A DNA stretch of 64,000 nucleotides, from the NCBI RefSeq assembly GCF_014274685.1, contig NZ_CP060393.1:3283501-3347500 (forward strand), in the 5' to 3' direction. A program made the translations under genes and the position numbers. Source of the stretch: Edaphobacter sp. 4G125 (lineage in GTDB: Bacteria > Acidobacteriota > Terriglobia > Terriglobales > Acidobacteriaceae). The first letter of the stretch is position 1, and the number at the start of each line of letters is the position of its first letter. Under the pieces are notes generated by a model, which was given only the letters and a program-made list of their open reading frames with translations, did not search any database and was not told the origin of the DNA. Positions 4,284-62,868 of this stretch are shown piece after piece.

Positions 4284-6272
4284 CTATCGATCTTTCCTTG
4301 AGAAGTGGATGGCCGCTCCACCACCTGGCGCCAGTTGCAAGGATAAATTGCTTCTACTTGATACAGATTTAGTAGAGATCCGTAGGTGTTTAGGCTGCGT
4401 TGCCGCATCCGCTGCATCCTCATACATTTCAGCCGTATAGACACCTTTGCCAAGAAAAGTGAGGGGTACGGTAAGGGTCTTGGGTTGCCAGTTCGTCATG
4501 GCACCGAGATACCAGTCATCGTTGTGGCGACGGGCAATGACGGTATCTTCCCCGGGTGTACTGGAGACGACACGGGTCTCATCCCATTCAACCGGCACAT
4601 CTTTTAAGAATTGAAAACCGGGTTGATTCTCGTAGTTTTGTGGGCTGTCAGAAAGCATCGGAAAAGGGGTTTCATAGATCACGTAAAGGGCAAGCTGTTG
4701 TGCTCGGGTCCCCATCGCCATGGGTGCTTCATTCCGCGCAACGAAAGCGTCCTCCGTCGCATTGTCAAATGCACCAGGAGTGAAATCCATCGGGCCGGCC
4801 AACAGACGTGTCGATGCAAAAATTGTACGATCAACGGGGCTATCCCTTCGTCCAACTTTATTGTTCTCCAATCCTAGGACAGCCTCATAACTCAGAACAT
4901 TCGGATAAGTACGAAGCAGGCCCCACGGGGTCCGGCAGCCGTGGAAATCGACCATGAGATGGTGCTCTGCGGCTAGTTTGGCAACATCGTAGTAGAACTG
5001 AATTCCTTCCTGGTCATCGCGATTGACGAAATCAATCTTCAACCCCGCGACACCCCATTTTTCGTAAAGTGGAAACGCTTCTCGCATCTGTTTCATGACG
5101 GAACCGGAGTAGAGCCATATCCAGACCTTAACGCCTTTGGCTGTTCCATAACGAACCAACTCCGGGATATCGATCTTACCGTTGAGTTGGGTGATGTCAT
5201 CCGACTTCGACCATCCGGCATCCAACATGAAATACGGCAACCCGTTTGCAGCTGAGAAGTCAATGTATTCCTTCATGACCTCCGTCGTGAACTCAGATCG
5301 TCCCGTCTTGCTGACGTTATCCACCCACCAGTTCCAACTGGCCTTCCCGCCCTGGATCCAACTCGTATCGGAAATGCGCGACGGTGGATTAAGGTTTGTC
5401 AGGAGATTCGATTCGATCAGTTTTCCCGGAGTATCGGCGATGCCAAGAACCCTCCATGCTGAATAATGTGGGAGGCTTCCAATAACGGCGAACGTTGGAT
5501 CATCCCATCGCGGAGAGAGTTTCACGGTTAACAAATGGCCCTCCCAGTTCCCCGAAGGGTTAGTGAGGTACATCGAACTATTCGTCTCCAGGTTAGATTC
5601 CATGAGTGATATCCAAGCCACACCGGGTTGATGCAGTAAGACTGGAGTTCCGATCAGGAAATGGCTGGAGACGCCTCCTTGATTGCTTAAAGAGGATAGG
5701 TTGAGACGCACATACTCACTCTCATAGCTGCTGCGATAGTTCGGTAGGGCCAGTACCCAGGCTGTGTCGTCTTCCGCAAAGCGAAACTCCGTTTCCTCTG
5801 TCTTTAGCTTGAAATCGGAGATATTGTTCTGTTCGGGAACAAGGTAGCGAAAGGCAATACCGTCGTTATACGCCCGGGCTTCGATATCCAGTTTTCGATT
5901 CGCGCCCACGGATTCCACCGTGCGAATACGGATGGTGTTATATGCATCATGCACCTTACTCGTCTTCGTATTGCGCAAGGGGTAATCGTCTATCCCAGAC
6001 GATGAGGTAGCCCCCTCGATTCGTACGTCGGATCCAAGTGGTGGCCCACCTTCAAGATTGAGGCCAAGCGCAGATTTATTGATGACGCTCTTTCCGTTAA
6101 AAAGGACAGAGTACTCGAGAGAACCTGAGTTCTTCGTTGCATCCTTCACATCAAATTCCATCTTGATGCGACCATCCGGTGACATGACCGAGAGGGTTTC
6201 CTGTGAGACTAGTGGCATTACAGGTAAGAGAAAGAGGACAGTGGAAAGAATGACAACAGGCCGCAATTGCAT
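4284..6272 (-). CDS. GH97 glycosidase, retaining alpha-galactosidase type
   Basis: A 662-aa protein with a signal peptide (LSTVLFLLPVMPLVSQ) and the three-part GH97 layout: N-terminal beta-sandwich (about 25-290), (beta/alpha)8 barrel (about 300-560) and C-terminal beta-sandwich. The barrel contains 'GGKASWNWWV', 'FMLDAGWS' and GLKIDF. Asp414 in GLKIDF lies where the retaining alpha-galactosidase branch of GH97 has its nucleophile; the inverting SusB-like alpha-glucosidases use glutamates elsewhere. Glu463 in SYEAVLGLE is a candidate acid/base. Specificity is inferred from these residues only. The ATG has GGAG about ten bases upstream. The gene follows the receptor at 6381-9899 across a strong hairpin, so some transcription probably passes that terminator or a local promoter exists. 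Confidence 0.9.
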   Translation of the reverse strand: MQLRPVVILSTVLFLLPVMPLVSQETLSVMSPDGRIKMEFDVKDATKNSGSLEYSVLFNGKSVINKSALGLNLEGGPPLGSDVRIEGATSSSGIDDYPLRNTKTSKVHDAYNTIRIRTVESVGANRKLDIEARAYNDGIAFRYLVPEQNNISDFKLKTEETEFRFAEDDTAWVLALPNYRSSYESEYVRLNLSSLSNQGGVSSHFLIGTPVLLHQPGVAWISLMESNLETNSSMYLTNPSGNWEGHLLTVKLSPRWDDPTFAVIGSLPHYSAWRVLGIADTPGKLIESNLLTNLNPPSRISDTSWIQGGKASWNWWVDNVSKTGRSEFTTEVMKEYIDFSAANGLPYFMLDAGWSKSDDITQLNGKIDIPELVRYGTAKGVKVWIWLYSGSVMKQMREAFPLYEKWGVAGLKIDFVNRDDQEGIQFYYDVAKLAAEHHLMVDFHGCRTPWGLLRTYPNVLSYEAVLGLENNKVGRRDSPVDRTIFASTRLLAGPMDFTPGAFDNATEDAFVARNEAPMAMGTRAQQLALYVIYETPFPMLSDSPQNYENQPGFQFLKDVPVEWDETRVVSSTPGEDTVIARRHNDDWYLGAMTNWQPKTLTVPLTFLGKGVYTAEMYEDAADAATQPKHLRISTKSVSSRSNLSLQLAPGGGAAIHFSRKDR

Positions 6273-54840: not shown

Positions 54841-57800
54841 TTAGAAGATAATCTTTCCCGCCAGTTGCAACTGCCGCGACGACCCAAGGTCGCTCACAGC
54901 AAATCTCGTCGCGGAGATCTGTCCAAAGCTGGCTGAAGTATCTGCCAATGTCGGCTGCCCAAAGCTGGGATGATTCAGCACGTCGAATGCGTCCGCTCGC
55001 AATTGCAGCGTAAACCGCTCTGTGAGTTTTGTGTTCTTCTCCAGCGAGACATCGACATCGGCAAAACCCGGCCCTGTTGCCGCATTACGGCGCAGGTTCC
55101 CGAAGCCGTTGACATTGGCAAACGAACATCCTGCGACTGGCCCCGAGGCTGGACATAACGTCGACGAGATCCAGCCGACATTTCCATTCGTCAGCTTTGT
55201 CTTGGAGATCGTAATCGGCGCCACCAGATTGGGTCGCACTGTGCCACCTGTTCCAGTCAGGCCATTCACGGTCGCAGCAACGGCGCTATTAATAATGTTC
55301 ATCGGATTGCCCGTCTGCCACTGCGCAATTCCTGAGAGGCGAAATCCTTCAACCAGGCGATTCCCTTTGAAAGGAAGATCATAGATTGCATTCGCTGAGA
55401 TTCGGTGCCGCACATCGAAGTCAGAGAGCCCGAAATTCGACTTGGGATTGTAGCTGTCCTGGAAGACATATACTCCCTGAGAACCTAACGAGTTCAAATC
55501 GGTGGACTTCGACCAGTTATAAGTCATATTGAACTGCACATCGTGCGCCAGGTTCTTCCGCGCTGTTACCCAGAGCGCGTTATACATCGATGATCCTGCG
55601 CTGGTCACCTCGTTGAAGTTCGAGGCCACGGATGCACCGGGAGCAATCGGGCTGCTGCCCGACAATTTCAGATAAGGACGTACACCGTTGATCGGCTGGT
55701 TCTGATTTACTCGTGCTCGAAGCTGTCGCCCCACAGACCCGAAGTATCCAATCTGCATCGCTACGCCACCAGAAAACTCTTGTTGCAGATTCAGGTTGTA
55801 GCTCTGCGTATAGGCGTTCTTGAAGTTGTGGTTGACGGTGTTGACGGTCAATCCCGCTGCGGCAGCCGACGTGTAGAGGCTCGACAAAGGGATGGCTGTA
55901 CTGCTGTTGTAGTTCACAGGGGCTGCAAACGGCGTATTCGATGCGAGTCCGGTTACAGCATTGGTTGCAGGCTGATCGGCCATGTAGCCGTAGCCGCCAC
56001 GAAGCACCGTCTTCCCCGTGCCGAAGACATCGTAGGCAAAACCAACACGCGGCTCCCAGTTGTAATTCTGCTTATAGACGCTTCCCAGGCCATTGGCGCC
56101 AACCCGGATCAGCGATGCGGTTGCTGGATCAAAGACAACAAGCCGGTTCGCTCCTTCGCTTGGAGTTCCATTCCACTCAAATCTCAAACCAAGTTCCAGG
56201 GTCAGATTCTGAGTGAGCTTATAGTTGTCCTGAATAAATCCGCCCAGGGCATTCACATAGATTCTGCTGGAGACTGTACTCGGCGTAATCGTAAAAACGT
56301 TCGCCACGCCATTGATAAAGTTTGCAGTTGTATTGAAACCCACTGTACCGGTATCGCTGGCGAAGTTCGCGTTCAGGAAACGACGATATTCACCACCGAA
56401 CTTCAGCGTGTGCTTCCCGACAAGATAGGTTGCTGTATCCGAGAAGACACCCAGCGTATCAGTGCGCCCCTGGGGGAAGAGGGCGGGACCACCGAAGTTC
56501 AGTGAGATATCGGTGATCGTCATCTGCGGCAATCCCAATGCCGTATTGATCCCATCATTGATGTGGTAGTCACCGGGATTGGCCCTAAAACTCGGGTTAA
56601 AAGCAATGTAGATCCGGTTGAATCCAAGCCTCGCCTCATTCACGAGTTTGGGGTTAAAAACGTGCGTCTCATTCAGGGTCAAGACCTGCCGATGTGCCTC
56701 ACGGCTATCTCCGAATCCCGGTATCGTATTCCCTTGCAAGTTCGGCTCTGTCCGCACATCCGACTGAAATGCATAGAAGCCATGGAGCGTATCTTTCGTA
56801 CTGAACTGATGCAAAATGTCTGCCGTCCCCTGATGCACAGTCACCGGCCCCGGGGCTGATCCAATAAAGCGGGTTCCGGTGGAATCGTTCGGCAGAGGGA
56901 TTAGCGGCAGCAGAGCGACGGCCGCAGGATTTCCAACGGACACAATCTGTGCCCGCTGTGCTGCGGTTAATACGCCACTATTCAACGTCAATGACTGGCG
57001 CTGAATCAGTCCTTCATAGCTCAAAAAGAAGAAAGTCTTATTCCGCCAGATTGGACCACCGAGGGCAGCTCCAAAGTTATTCCGCTTCAGAGAAGCCTGT
57101 TTAGCAGGGCTCCGGTTGAAGTAGTTGCGTGCATCCAGCGCCTCATTCCGAAGATAGTCGAAGACCTCGCCATGGAAATCATTCGTGCCCGAACGTGTGC
57201 TGACATTCACGATCGAACCGGAGCTGCGTCCGTACTCTGCACTATAGGTAGAGTTGTTGATCTTGAACTCAGACGTGGTGTTGATTGACGGCTGGAAGGT
57301 GATCTGGTTCTGTACCATGTCATTCAGATTGATGCCGTTGATCTGAAAGTTCACCGTGTCTTCGCGATTTCCCGCCGTAATAAAAGAATTCGCTCCCAGT
57401 CCGCGGCTTGGCGAGGTGAGGTTTCCATTCTGCGGAGCTGTAACTCCACCAGGCGTCAACACCGTCAGGTCAAGAAAATGCCGGCCATTCAAAGGGATCT
57501 CCTGCACAGTCACGCGATCGATGACCTGCCCCACGGTAATCGTGCTGGCATCAATAACCGGAGCCGCTCCAGTGACTTCAACCGTCTGGCCTGTCGAAGC
57601 AACGTTAAGCCTTACGTTGATCGTGGCCCTCTGGTCGACCTGTAACTGAACCCTGGAAACGGTGTAGGGCCCGAACCCAGAGGCGTCCACCTGCAAGCTG
57701 TAGTTCCCTGGCTGCAAGGACGGAACGACATACGTTCCCACGCTATCGGTCGTCGTATCGCGATCGGCATTCGTATCCAGCGAATGTACTTTCACCGCTG

Positions 57801-57933
57801 CGCCAGCAACGACAGCGCCGGAAGCATCTGTTACCGTGCCGGATAAGGTTGCGGTGGTTTGTGCAGATCCTGATGCGCACGCCACGGCCAAAACAAATAC
57901 AATTCCATACTTCAACCATCTCGCAGCTTTCAT
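54841..57933 (-). CDS. TonB-dependent receptor, Oar-like (receptor 4)
   Basis: A 1030-aa receptor. The ATG at 57933 is preferred because GGAGG lies six bases upstream and the signal peptide MKAARWLKYGIVFVLAVACA (cleavage near GSAQ) starts there; the frame extends 15 codons upstream. Then follow the carboxypeptidase-regulatory-like domain (LSGTVTDASGAVVAGAAV), plug motif EIPLNGRHFLDLTVLTPGGV and the barrel ending LQLAGKIIF. It is divergent from a LacI regulator and an MFS permease, with two palindromic candidate operators between them. This suggests uptake of a sugar whose release is sensed by that LacI. No glycosidase is linked here, so the ligand is unknown. Confidence 0.93.
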   Translation of the reverse strand: MKAARWLKYGIVFVLAVACASGSAQTTATLSGTVTDASGAVVAGAAVKVHSLDTNADRDTTTDSVGTYVVPSLQPGNYSLQVDASGFGPYTVSRVQLQVDQRATINVRLNVASTGQTVEVTGAAPVIDASTITVGQVIDRVTVQEIPLNGRHFLDLTVLTPGGVTAPQNGNLTSPSRGLGANSFITAGNREDTVNFQINGINLNDMVQNQITFQPSINTTSEFKINNSTYSAEYGRSSGSIVNVSTRSGTNDFHGEVFDYLRNEALDARNYFNRSPAKQASLKRNNFGAALGGPIWRNKTFFFLSYEGLIQRQSLTLNSGVLTAAQRAQIVSVGNPAAVALLPLIPLPNDSTGTRFIGSAPGPVTVHQGTADILHQFSTKDTLHGFYAFQSDVRTEPNLQGNTIPGFGDSREAHRQVLTLNETHVFNPKLVNEARLGFNRIYIAFNPSFRANPGDYHINDGINTALGLPQMTITDISLNFGGPALFPQGRTDTLGVFSDTATYLVGKHTLKFGGEYRRFLNANFASDTGTVGFNTTANFINGVANVFTITPSTVSSRIYVNALGGFIQDNYKLTQNLTLELGLRFEWNGTPSEGANRLVVFDPATASLIRVGANGLGSVYKQNYNWEPRVGFAYDVFGTGKTVLRGGYGYMADQPATNAVTGLASNTPFAAPVNYNSSTAIPLSSLYTSAAAAGLTVNTVNHNFKNAYTQSYNLNLQQEFSGGVAMQIGYFGSVGRQLRARVNQNQPINGVRPYLKLSGSSPIAPGASVASNFNEVTSAGSSMYNALWVTARKNLAHDVQFNMTYNWSKSTDLNSLGSQGVYVFQDSYNPKSNFGLSDFDVRHRISANAIYDLPFKGNRLVEGFRLSGIAQWQTGNPMNIINSAVAATVNGLTGTGGTVRPNLVAPITISKTKLTNGNVGWISSTLCPASGPVAGCSFANVNGFGNLRRNAATGPGFADVDVSLEKNTKLTERFTLQLRADAFDVLNHPSFGQPTLADTSASFGQISATRFAVSDLGSSRQLQLAGKIIF

Positions 57934-57983
57934 AAGCCGCCTCCACAAAGAAGAAATATGCTCCCCTTTCGGGGACACTCTCT

Positions 57984-57995
57984 TTCAACGTTGAA
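57984..57995. promoter_or_regulatory. Palindrome TTCAACGTTGAA, candidate LacI operator
   Basis: A perfect 12-bp palindrome with a central CG, typical of LacI-family operators, 51 bp upstream of the receptor-4 start. The adjacent divergent LacI gene (58318) is the natural candidate to bind it. Confidence 0.6.
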
Positions 57996-58317: not shown

Positions 58318-59373
58318 ATGGCAACCAGAAAAAAACGTATTCCCGACACCAGCAAACCCGTAACCCTGAAGATTCTTGCCGAATATCTCGATCTCTCTCC
58401 CGCCACTGTTTCCATCGTCCTGAACAACTCGCCGGTGGCGAAGTCGATCTCGCCGGAGACTCGCGAGCGTGTTCTGGATGCTGCAAAGAAATTTGAGTAT
58501 CGCCCGAATCTCCATGCCCGGATGCTTCGCACGCGGCTCACCAACACGGTCGGGGTCGTCGTTCCCGAACTCAGCGAAGGTTACTTCACCCGGCTAATGC
58601 TTGGCGTGGAAGAGTATCTGATGCAGGCTGGCTATCTCTATTTCACGGTCAGCCATCTTGGGCGCCCGGATCTGATGGAAGAGTACCCGGACCTCTTGAT
58701 CAGTCGCGCCGTAGATGGCTTCCTCCTCGTCAATACAGAGCTTCGCAAGAAAGTGCCTCTACCTGCCGTTGGGATCTCCTCGCACATCCAGGTCCCTGGC
58801 GTCACCAATGTTGTTCTCGATCACAAGCACGCTACATTCCTTGCTCTCCGTCATCTTTACGAACTCGGTCACCGCCGCATCGCCTTTATGAAGGGACAGC
58901 GTTTTTCGCTCGACTCCGAGGCAAGATGGCAGTCCATCCACGCTGTCGCGCAGGAGATTGGAATCACCATCCAGTCCGACCTTTGTATTTATCTTGAAGA
59001 GAACCTCTGGTCTCCAGATCTCGGCTATCTTCCTGTCCGCGAGATGCTCTCGAAGACCCGCGACTTCACTGCCCTGTTCTGCTTCAACGACACTGCGGCC
59101 ATTGGGGCGATCCGCGCAATTCAGGACGCTGGCCTCTCTTGCCCCGGCGATATCTCTGTCATCGGCTTCGACGACATCATCGTCTCCGGATTCGTCAATC
59201 CTCGTCTCACGACCGTTCGTCAGCCCTTGCACAAGATGGGCGTCGCCGCAGCAGAGCTTTTGATCAAACGTATCCAGGCACCGAACCAGCCCTATCCTGA
59301 AAACCTATGGTTCGATCCTGAACTTGTCGTGCGAGAGTCCACAGCCGCTGCACCGTTGGATCGTTCATCATAG
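58318..59373 (+). CDS. LacI family transcriptional regulator (regulator 3)
   Basis: A 351-aa LacI-type protein. The helix-turn-helix TLKILAEYLDLSPATVSIVL (about 15-35) is followed by the hinge NLHARMLRTRLTNTVGVVVP and the sugar-binding core, ending with IGFDDIIVSGFVNPRLTTV. A short basic N-terminal extension (MATRKKRIPDTSKP) precedes the HTH. GGAG lies about four bases before the ATG. The MFS gene begins 26 bp downstream, so the two are co-transcribed. It is the probable regulator of the divergent receptor 4 through the palindromes at 57984 and 58027. Confidence 0.94.
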   Translation: MATRKKRIPDTSKPVTLKILAEYLDLSPATVSIVLNNSPVAKSISPETRERVLDAAKKFEYRPNLHARMLRTRLTNTVGVVVPELSEGYFTRLMLGVEEYLMQAGYLYFTVSHLGRPDLMEEYPDLLISRAVDGFLLVNTELRKKVPLPAVGISSHIQVPGVTNVVLDHKHATFLALRHLYELGHRRIAFMKGQRFSLDSEARWQSIHAVAQEIGITIQSDLCIYLEENLWSPDLGYLPVREMLSKTRDFTALFCFNDTAAIGAIRAIQDAGLSCPGDISVIGFDDIIVSGFVNPRLTTVRQPLHKMGVAAAELLIKRIQAPNQPYPENLWFDPELVVRESTAAAPLDRSS

Positions 59374-59399: not shown

Positions 59400-60557
59400 A
59401 TGACCTCAACACAACATTTTTCCGTCCGTTTCATATGGTTGCGCTTAGCGCCTCTCTTCGCCTGCACAGCCTGCCTCGGACTGCTTACGGTGATGCTGGG
59501 TCCATTGCTTCCCGCTCTGATTCTGCATTGGCACATCCAGGATGCGCAGGCAGGGACGCTCTTCACGGCGTTTTTTCTCGGACAACTTCTCGGTGCCTGG
59601 TTCGCGACACGCAATCTGCGATTCAGTCTTCTTGGCGGCACTCTCCTCGGCGCAATCGGAACAGGGACTATGGCCTGGACCGGTTATGCGACAGCGCACC
59701 TCGCATTATTTGTCGCAGGCATCGGAATCTCCGCCGGGCTCACAGCAGGCAATGTTATTGCAGGGACAGCAACCGAACATCCAGCACGTGCCCTCGCGCT
59801 CTTCAATGCCAGCTGGGGTATTGGAGCCATTGCATGTCCTGTACTTGTCTGGCTTTGCGGAGCCTCCCGTCCGCGAATCTTTTTCCTCGCCGCGGCTGCC
59901 CTTACCCTTGGTGGAGGAATCTACTCGAATACATTACCGCGCACGCTCACGAACAATGCTTCGCCGGTGCCGAAGACCTCCGCGCAAAGCAAACTTCCTC
60001 TTTCCGCATCCGTGCTTCTGTTCTTCGGAGCCTCAATGCTGATCTACATCGGCAACGAAAACTCGCTTGGCGGCTGGCTCCCCAGCTTTGCCTTGCGTAA
60101 TGGCTCGGTCATAACCGCTTCGGCGGTCTCTCTTCTATATTGGGCCTCTGAACTTGCAGGGCGCCTTCTTTTGGCCGGCCTTCGAGTTAAAGAATCTACC
60201 CTCTATCGCGCTTCTCTTTCACTGCTTCTCGTCACCTTGACGGCGCTTCTTATCACTCGCCATCCATCTCCAGGGCACGTCCTGCTGTGCATCGTCGTCG
60301 CGGGAATCTCTATGGGGCCTCTCTATCCATTGATCGTGACCTTTCTGCTGAAACGGACCGGGAATCATCCCCGCCTGGGACATATTTTCGCCTCCTGCTC
60401 CCTCGGAGGAGCTATGCTTCCCCTGCTGACCGGAATTCTATCCACCCACTTCGGTAGCCTCCGGGCAGGACTTTTCGTTCCGCTTGCAGGCGTCCTGCTG
60501 ATGCTGCTTTTCTCTTCCCATATTCTTCCGCTCTGCCCTACCGAGCAGGAGGGTTAA
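59400..60557 (+). CDS. MFS permease, FucP/YbjJ-like
   Basis: A 385-aa inner-membrane protein with about 12 hydrophobic segments, somewhat short for the superfamily. It resembles the fucose-permease-like group (LGPLLPALILHWHIQDAQAG, LFTAFFLGQLLGAW, LALFNASWGIGAIACP), different from the sugar-porter at 13638. A monosaccharide or a related compound is the likely cargo. It lies 26 bp after LacI regulator 3 and is convergent with a small minus-strand gene whose terminator lies just beyond its stop codon. Confidence 0.88.
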   Translation: MTSTQHFSVRFIWLRLAPLFACTACLGLLTVMLGPLLPALILHWHIQDAQAGTLFTAFFLGQLLGAWFATRNLRFSLLGGTLLGAIGTGTMAWTGYATAHLALFVAGIGISAGLTAGNVIAGTATEHPARALALFNASWGIGAIACPVLVWLCGASRPRIFFLAAAALTLGGGIYSNTLPRTLTNNASPVPKTSAQSKLPLSASVLLFFGASMLIYIGNENSLGGWLPSFALRNGSVITASAVSLLYWASELAGRLLLAGLRVKESTLYRASLSLLLVTLTALLITRHPSPGHVLLCIVVAGISMGPLYPLIVTFLLKRTGNHPRLGHIFASCSLGGAMLPLLTGILSTHFGSLRAGLFVPLAGVLLMLLFSSHILPLCPTEQEG

Positions 60558-60563
60558 AAAAGA

Positions 60564-60585
60564 ATGCCAGGCCGAAGCCTGGCAT
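60564..60585 (-). terminator. Intrinsic terminator of the 30-codon gene
   Basis: A perfect 9-bp stem ATGCCAGGC / GCCTGGCAT with, on the minus strand, the stable TTCG tetraloop and a T tail (TTCTTTTTT). It is a textbook intrinsic terminator for minus-strand transcription and lies 17 bp after the small gene at 60603-60695. On the plus strand it has no T tail. Confidence 0.85.
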
Positions 60586-60602
60586 CTCACAAAAACTGAA
60601 CA

Positions 60603-60695
60603 CTACGATTTCGTCGAGAACTGAAACTGGTCCCGAAGAGTAATGTAACCAATCACCACAAGAGCAACCAAGGATGGAAGAAAGAACAGATACAT
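60603..60695 (-). CDS. Candidate 30-aa single-span membrane peptide
   Basis: A 31-codon frame (stop included) starting ATG at 60695. A strong AAGGAGG lies four bases upstream, and an intrinsic terminator follows the stop by 17 bp, so it has its own transcript. The peptide is hydrophobic in its first 19 residues (MYLFFLPSLVALVVIGYIT) and ends in a polar tail with LRDQFQF, the pattern of small single-span inner-membrane proteins. I do not recognise a family; it is not a clear KdpF or CydX. A 7-bp hairpin (60746-60767) lies in its leader, and the ABC gene upstream ends at a separate terminator. Confidence 0.65.
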   Translation of the reverse strand: MYLFFLPSLVALVVIGYITLRDQFQFSTKS

Positions 60696-60745
60696 AAAGC
60701 CTCCTTCGGAGAAGTTCGAACAATGGCCCAATACAGACTTTTGCA

Positions 60746-60902: not shown

Positions 60903-60944
60903 CAAAAAAAGGCGAAATCCCGCCAAAGATAGCGAGATTCGCCT
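60903..60944 (-). terminator. Intrinsic terminator downstream of the ABC exporter
   Basis: On the minus strand AGGCGAATCTCGC pairs with GCGGGATTTCGCCT (about 13 bp, one bulge and one wobble) around an 8-nt loop, followed by seven T residues. It lies about 113 bp after the ABC stop codon and separates that gene from the small gene. Confidence 0.8.
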
Positions 60945-61056: not shown

Positions 61057-62868
61057 TTACACAACCGTAAGGTCTCCGGAGTAGCCGTCCGTCTCGACCA
61101 ACAGTCCCAGGGCCTGCCGGTCGAACAGACGTTTGTAGGTTCCCCCTGAACGGCCAACCAGCGCGTCATGGGTTCCCTCTTCCACAATCTGCCCATGATC
61201 GAACACCAGGATGCGGTCGAGCATGCGAACCGTGGACAGCCGGTGCGCAATCACGATCGCCGTCCGCCCAACCATTAGCCGTTCTGTCGCCTCCTGAATC
61301 AATGCTTCCGACTCAGAGTCCAGACTCGAGGTCGCCTCATCCAGAATGAGAATCGGGGTATCCGCAAGGAACGCTCGCGCCAATGCGATACGCTGACGTT
61401 CGCCTCCTGAGAGCTTGACCCCGCGTTCGCCCACCAGAGTGGCATATTCCTTGGGCTGACGAAGGATGAACTCCTCCGCATGAGCCAAACGAGCGGCTTC
61501 CTCGATCTGACGCCGGCTGGCCGACGGGCGTCCATAGGCAATGTTCTCCGCAAGCGAACGATGGAAGAGGATCGGTTCCTGCGGAACCAATGCCATCTGG
61601 GCGCGCAGCGAATCCTGCGTAACCTTGGAGATATCCTGGCCGTCGACAAGGATACGACCGTCTCCGATGTCATAGAGACGATGCAGCATCTTTACAAACG
61701 TAGTCTTCCCCGAACCCGAATGCCCTACTAGGCCGACACGCTGACCTCCAGGAATATGCAGCGAAAAATCCTGGAAGAGCGGCGTCGTATGTCTGCCATA
61801 TTGAAAGGTCACATGATCGAACCGAATCTCTCCCGCAGTGATGCGAATCGGCTTTGCATTCGGTCTATCCTCAATCCCCAACGGCAAGGACTCCAACGCC
61901 ACCATCTCTTCCATGTCATTGACGCTGCGCTGAAGGTTCGCAACATGCTGACCGATATCGCGCAAATAGCCATGAATGATAAAGTAGCTCGTCAACACGA
62001 AGGCGATGTCTCCCGGAGTCGCGCGATGTTGCCACCACAGCAATAACGCGTAAAGAATCACAGCAGTGCGCAGCACCAGCAGCACCACAAGCTGCATGGT
62101 TCCGCTGCGCGTACCACGCGTCCAGTGCCGAAACGTTCGGCCGTTCCACTTGGAAAGAATGTGAGCCAGCCTCGCGTCCTCGCGAGATTCCGCGCCAAAG
62201 GCCTTTACCACCGGATTGCAGGTAATCGCATCGGCCATAGCTCCGCCGATGCGCGTATCCTGCGAATTCGAGAGCCGTGCAGCCGGAGCCACATAATTCA
62301 ACGAAAGCGCGATCGACAGCGCAATGTACAGGATTGCTCCTGAAGCAATGATCATCCCCATCTGCGGCCAATGGAATCCGAGCAACAACGAAGATCCCAC
62401 AAGAACCAACACCGCCGGCAGCAGAGCCAGCAACAAGGTGTCATTCATCAGGTCCGTCGCCCACATGCCGCGTGTTACTCGGCGAACGATAGAACCGGAA
62501 AAGTTGTTAGCATGCCAATCGGTAGAAAACCGCTGTACACGCCAGAAAGCATCGCTCGCAAACCGCGACATCAACCGCAGCGTTAGCCGAATGATTGCGG
62601 AGATCGCAATATGCCTCCCTGCAACCAGCAGTGCGCCCAGGATGACCATCAGCAGAACAGCGTGCAGCGCCGAGTGGATCGCCTGTGTCCGAACCGAAAT
62701 CGTCAACGCGTCAATGAGGCGTCCGGAATAGACCGGCAGCCAAAGATCAGCGCAGGTCGCAATCGCCATAGAAATAGCGGTTAAAGCAACAACAGCCTTC
62801 TCTCGTCGCCAGTGGCGAAATAAAAATGCGAGGACATCCCGCATCACAGAATTTTTAGAACCAGTCAT
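61057..62868 (-). CDS. ABC exporter, fused permease and ATPase
   Basis: A 603-aa half-transporter of the lipid/multidrug exporter type. The transmembrane domain (about 20-320) has six hydrophobic spans. The ATPase domain (about 345-585) has Walker A GLVGHSGSGKTTF, Q-loop ALVPQEPILF, signature KLSGGERQRIALARAF, Walker B ILILDEATSSLDS and the switch His in VIAHRLSTV. Two copies make the working exporter in the inner membrane; the substrate is unknown. No peptidase domain is present, so bacteriocin export of the C39 type is unlikely. A promoter-like region and a 26-codon frame lie upstream. Confidence 0.93.
   Translation of the reverse strand: MTGSKNSVMRDVLAFLFRHWRREKAVVALTAISMAIATCADLWLPVYSGRLIDALTISVRTQAIHSALHAVLLMVILGALLVAGRHIAISAIIRLTLRLMSRFASDAFWRVQRFSTDWHANNFSGSIVRRVTRGMWATDLMNDTLLLALLPAVLVLVGSSLLLGFHWPQMGMIIASGAILYIALSIALSLNYVAPAARLSNSQDTRIGGAMADAITCNPVVKAFGAESREDARLAHILSKWNGRTFRHWTRGTRSGTMQLVVLLVLRTAVILYALLLWWQHRATPGDIAFVLTSYFIIHGYLRDIGQHVANLQRSVNDMEEMVALESLPLGIEDRPNAKPIRITAGEIRFDHVTFQYGRHTTPLFQDFSLHIPGGQRVGLVGHSGSGKTTFVKMLHRLYDIGDGRILVDGQDISKVTQDSLRAQMALVPQEPILFHRSLAENIAYGRPSASRRQIEEAARLAHAEEFILRQPKEYATLVGERGVKLSGGERQRIALARAFLADTPILILDEATSSLDSESEALIQEATERLMVGRTAIVIAHRLSTVRMLDRILVFDHGQIVEEGTHDALVGRSGGTYKRLFDRQALGLLVETDGYSGDLTVV

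Follow-up and report, generated by a model that had tools for sequence, protein, structure and literature searches.

A gene for a 30-residue, probably single-pass membrane protein, conserved in Edaphobacter, whose product may dock on a larger membrane protein

The gene described here lies on the minus strand of a 64,000-nucleotide stretch of the Edaphobacter sp. 4G125 genome (hereafter the window), between an upstream ABC transporter gene and a downstream, convergent MFS transporter gene that is itself preceded by a gene for a LacI-type regulator (Table 1). The initial annotation had described a Shine-Dalgarno sequence, an ATG, 30 codons with a hydrophobic segment, a stop codon and a near-ideal intrinsic terminator, and all of these are indeed present on the minus strand. 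The terminator, 16 bases 3' of the stop codon, is a 10-pair hairpin with a TTCG loop followed by CTTTTTT, and in the window the T run of this hairpin is confined to the strand of the small gene. The upstream gene had been said to end at a terminator of its own, and terminator-like hairpins were found after the ABC gene. Because of these hairpins, its own terminator and the convergent orientation of the MFS gene, the small gene is most likely transcribed as a unit by itself, as far as the arrangement of signals can tell. Elsewhere in the neighbourhood, a perfect 12-bp palindrome, TTCAACGTTGAA (57984-57995), is found just before the start of a divergent large gene (54841-57978, minus strand) whose product looks by eye like a TonB-dependent receptor; this palindrome is a possible operator of the LacI regulator.

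Table 1. Features of the small gene and its neighbours in the window.
Feature	Position	Strand	Basis
LacI-type regulator gene, 5' of MFS gene	58318..59373	+	Pfam LacI and Peripla_BP_3
Convergent MFS transporter gene, candidate partner, downstream of small gene	59400..60557	+	Pfam MFS_1, E 2.5e-19; orthologue in 30/62 genus genomes
Intrinsic terminator of small gene, with T run past the lower coordinate	60563..60586 (read 60586-60563)	-	counterparts in 24/40 members
Small gene, 30 codons plus stop, product MYLFFLPSLVALVVIGYITLRDQFQFSTKS	60603..60695	-	frame, single-sequence and profile matches in relatives, codon analysis
Stop codon of small gene	60605-60603	-	sequence
Juxtamembrane motif LRDQF, residues 20-24	60624..60638	-	[LMI][RK][DE][QH]F in 35 core peptides
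Hydrophobic segment, residues 2-20	60636..60692	-	hydropathy 2.21; AlphaFold2 helix 5-29, mean pLDDT 88
Start codon ATG of small gene	60695-60693	-	sequence
Shine-Dalgarno AAGGAGG, 4 bases 5' of ATG	60700..60706	-	sequence; GGAG(G) in 37/38 distinct start regions
Terminator-like hairpins after upstream ABC gene	60911..60940 (60940-60915 and 60924-60911)	-	hairpin search
ABC transporter gene, upstream of small gene	61057..62868	-	Pfam ABC_tran and ABC_membrane

Nine frames of 20-60 amino acids in the window start 3-9 nt after a GGAGG, and two of them reach a best 19-residue hydropathy of at least 2.0, namely the small gene (2.21) and a frame that opens at an internal, in-frame start of the MFS gene. 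When the sequence was shuffled 30 times with dinucleotides preserved, about seven such frames arose per shuffle and none reached 2.0. Given that the small gene is conserved in relatives, a chance origin is untenable on this comparative evidence.

That the frame encodes a real small protein, as had been proposed, was borne out by the relatives, in which the frame is conserved and selected at the codon level and the Shine-Dalgarno sequence and terminators recur. We compared 40 aligned cores of 24 codons, a set that also contains near-identical genomes. None carried an in-frame stop, and the five other frames had stops in 9 to 40 of the 40. Mean entropies at codon positions 1, 2 and 3 were 0.66, 0.36 and 1.41, the third position being the most variable, and mean pS was 0.70 versus a pN of 0.21 over 778 pairs (pooled pS 0.48 versus pN 0.17 in the 157 closer pairs). 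Two tandem pairs differ over the core only by synonymous changes, L068 with a dS of 1.15 and L064 with a dS of 0.33, dN being 0 in both. Values of dN/dS above 0.6 were found in 7 of the 157 closer pairs, three of them with L067 and two with the odd copy L088 (one at 1.14). The pattern of substitution indicates that the protein is under purifying selection.

The signals around the frame were followed in the same relatives. The single one of the 38 distinct start regions without GGAG or GGAGG 5' of the ATG has AGGGGG instead, and it was omitted from both comparisons of Shine-Dalgarno accessibility given below. Conservation of the start is partly by construction, since members were picked by an ATG-MY start; the profile matches, which were not so picked, mostly start from the first position of the profile. 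A terminator in the direction of the gene was found within 220 nt in 24 of the 40 members, against 1.7 expected from mononucleotide shuffles, with one in the reverse direction in 6 and none in 16, so that the terminator does not merely serve another transcript. In 11 close relatives, few bases other than those of the frame, the Shine-Dalgarno sequence and the terminator are invariant. The copy L088, which has a different tail, was kept in the 40 cores and omitted from the conservation profile of 35 peptides; the members from G431, G433 and G035 are in the alignment (A2) and absent from the codon, conservation, Shine-Dalgarno and accessibility analyses.

In the 35 core peptides, M1, Y2, P7, I15 and F24 are invariant and F5, A11 and I18 nearly so, and the family as a whole ranges from 28 to 37 residues. 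AlphaFold2, run without an alignment, gave one helix, so that a single-pass protein with one hydrophobic helix is predicted. Conservation within residues 3-19 follows the periodicity of a helix (permutation p 0.003 at 100 degrees and 0.006 over 95-105), which indicates that one face of the helix is kept. From the positive-inside rule, the peptide would insert in the inner membrane with its charged LRDQF tail inside.

A single-sequence search (E<=1) detected the small gene in 19 of 61 genomes, and with a profile, members were detected in 36 of the 62 genus genomes (29 of the 47 of good quality). G035 counts among these through two divergent copies alone, reading MY[IV]LFAPSALAFVLIA.... The gene occurs, among others, in records of Edaphobacter modestus, E. 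aggregans and E. lichenicola and in some labelled Granulicella (19 loci). We also searched 398 genomes of the family (79 genera, E<=0.1) and 399 of the class (135 genera, E<=0.005), and outside the genus only partial matches were seen, the best with an E of 3.6e-4; because at most 20 candidates per genome were scored, distant members may be missed. No model in Pfam or NCBIfam matched the peptide of the window and no NCBIfam model matched the family, whose sole Pfam match is that of one of 23 members to the YldA-like family PF23689, with an E of 0.022 that is near the chance level. A phage origin was rejected, as no viral contig matched the one pattern used and the PHROGs matches were weak (best E 0.0081, each to one or two of 40 members). 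Our literature search found no paper on small proteins in Edaphobacter. By these searches, the small protein represents a new family of small single-pass membrane proteins, seen here in one genus only. G387 contains a relative of 68 residues whose polar tail is longer (L089, about 5860-6066, minus strand), some 1.2 kb from an ECF-sigma-like gene cluster.

Two or three copies are present in 7 of the 36 positive genomes, in five of them as close tandem copies. On a tree of MqnE, which covers 57 of the 62 genomes, the distribution of the small gene needs at least nine gains or losses, and the gene appears clustered by descent, with repeated loss or transfer. The commonest order in the homology map is MqnE, often a PEP-CTERM-like gene, the small gene, and then the convergent MFS and LacI genes. 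The genome of the window has MqnE about 147 kb away, and there the small gene has nonetheless stayed next to the MFS gene. The upstream neighbour varies by lineage (MqnE, the PEP-CTERM-like protein, the ABC gene and others), and an operon with the upstream gene was rejected on this ground. A second site, beside a radical-SAM gene, is occupied in L067, L072 and L073, with L092 and L089 further off. Three consecutive PEP-CTERM-like genes lie between the small-gene copies of L068 (6648-9745), and similar genes are found 5' of the small gene in many relatives. Between the small-gene stop and a GH42 gene there is a 45-nt element with inverted-repeat ends (CTTACTTACCG...CGGTAAGTAG; L063, 6123-6167, and also L065, L082 and L087), identical in three genomes, similar in a fourth and more conserved than the small gene itself; Rfam gave no match around it.

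What might such a protein do? Passages of a published account (PMC11539335) describe small membrane proteins as often working by docking on larger ones, with KdpF, AcrZ and MgtS as known examples. One conserved helix face, a charged surface motif and a nearly fixed length are what would be expected of a docking peptide, and docking is for this reason the most likely role; we hold with moderate confidence that the small gene stands alone and encodes a microprotein that crosses the membrane once and docks on a larger membrane protein. Once inserted, the peptide would use the conserved face and the LRDQF motif to bind its partner, and binding would change the assembly, stability or activity of that protein, as KdpF, AcrZ and MgtS do. 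The small protein resembles these three in being short and hydrophobic and in its inferred docking on a larger membrane protein. It differs from them in matching no Pfam or NCBIfam model and in being encoded outside any operon with a transporter, and the genus has a KdpF of its own. However, the conserved face would also fit self-association, for example in a pore-forming peptide, and the repeated gain and loss on the MqnE tree also weighs against docking to the extent that a partner essential across the whole genus is unlikely.

The best candidate for the partner, judged from gene content, is the convergent MFS transporter. Its orthologue (E<=1e-60) occurs in 30 of the 62 genomes of the genus, all 30 of which have the small gene, and the 26 genomes lacking the small gene lack the transporter as well. 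The two genes adjoin in 22 of the 30, even in the genome of the window where the block has moved away from MqnE, and are within about 10 kb in six; in G412 (4.1 Mb, about 50 contigs), where MFS follows MqnE, and in the fragmented G433 they are on separate contigs. Moreover, G384 keeps the GH42 and LacI genes at the MqnE site and has neither the small gene nor the transporter. One could therefore picture a narrower case of docking, in which the peptide is a dedicated accessory of the LacI-linked transporter, as AcrZ is with AcrB. Yet neighbouring genes are gained and lost together, and the plain Fisher p of 4e-12 for co-occurrence is not matched by the phylogenetically independent pairs, of which two go the same way, none the opposite way and three show no difference, which is not significant. 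Linkage and descent thus appear sufficient to explain the co-occurrence. Six of the 36 carriers have no MFS orthologue (G007, G010, G013, G015, G024 and G035), G010 and G024 among them keeping the small gene near the old site, in two copies in G024, and this survival argues against an obligate tie. Nor do the two genes share an operon, being convergent, and a search 5' of the small gene gave no LacI-type palindrome. We consider a dedicated accessory rather unlikely; the same low standing goes to its fuller form, a regulatory subunit of the transporter that is convergent rather than co-operonic and was duplicated or re-used for other carriers where MFS was lost.

Type I toxins such as Ldr, Fst and TisB are small, have a hydrophobic helix and occur in tandem copies. 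The small protein is like them in these three respects, and its patchy presence and short transcription unit of its own would also suit a type I toxin, or another membrane-active stress peptide, silenced by a putative antisense RNA. It is unlike them in that its Shine-Dalgarno sequence is not hidden by comparison with shuffled upstream DNA: at the 5% level, 0 of 37 start regions were less accessible than their shuffled controls (mean z +0.5). A set of 58 unmatched control genes was more accessible (median 0.34 versus 0.19 for the family), but the idea of a hidden Shine-Dalgarno sequence was dropped. The promoter scan of the window returned no site near the small gene on either strand, inspection of the alignments by eye revealed no conserved antisense promoter, and no toxin family was matched in Pfam or NCBIfam; an antisense RNA would be compatible with all of these results. 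Our literature search found no paper on type I toxin-antitoxin systems in Acidobacteria. We regard a toxin as an improbable reading of the gene.

It is very improbable that the peptide is a known small subunit, either of cytochrome bd (CydS-like) or of the Kdp pump (KdpF). By eye it is similar to CydS of the Geobacillus cytochrome bd (5doq_C), with about 30 residues, one helix, an early proline in the N-terminal part and LKD in CydS or LRD in the small protein after the helix, and KdpF is of the same size. However, a profile search of PDB chains with the family (E<=10) matched one chain, which was neither CydS nor KdpF, and presence does not follow cydA in the 62 genomes (it is present in 19 of the 36 genomes with the small gene and in 9 of the 26 without). 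The kdpA gene is in 59 of the 62 genomes and absent from G028, which carries the small gene, and a separate, canonical KdpF ends just 5' of kdpA in five of the six loci read, a similar frame being cut off in the sixth; both roles were rejected. In all six of these loci (L162, L164, L165, L167, L168 and L171) a second short hydrophobic frame, of about 31-42 residues and often starting MWD, precedes kdpF, and by eye this is possibly another small membrane protein. A small RNA with an incidental reading frame, which the compact unit with its own terminator might suggest, is refuted for practical purposes by codon-level selection, and against it stand also the sparse conservation outside the frame and its signals and the lack of an Rfam match in the window.

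Length filters readily overlook proteins of some 30 residues, and the one encoded by the small gene is backed by codon-level selection in one genus of soil bacteria. Residues for mutation can be chosen from the alignment, from the conserved face of the helix and from the LRDQF motif, and the MFS transporter, through its co-occurrence with the small gene, is a first candidate partner.
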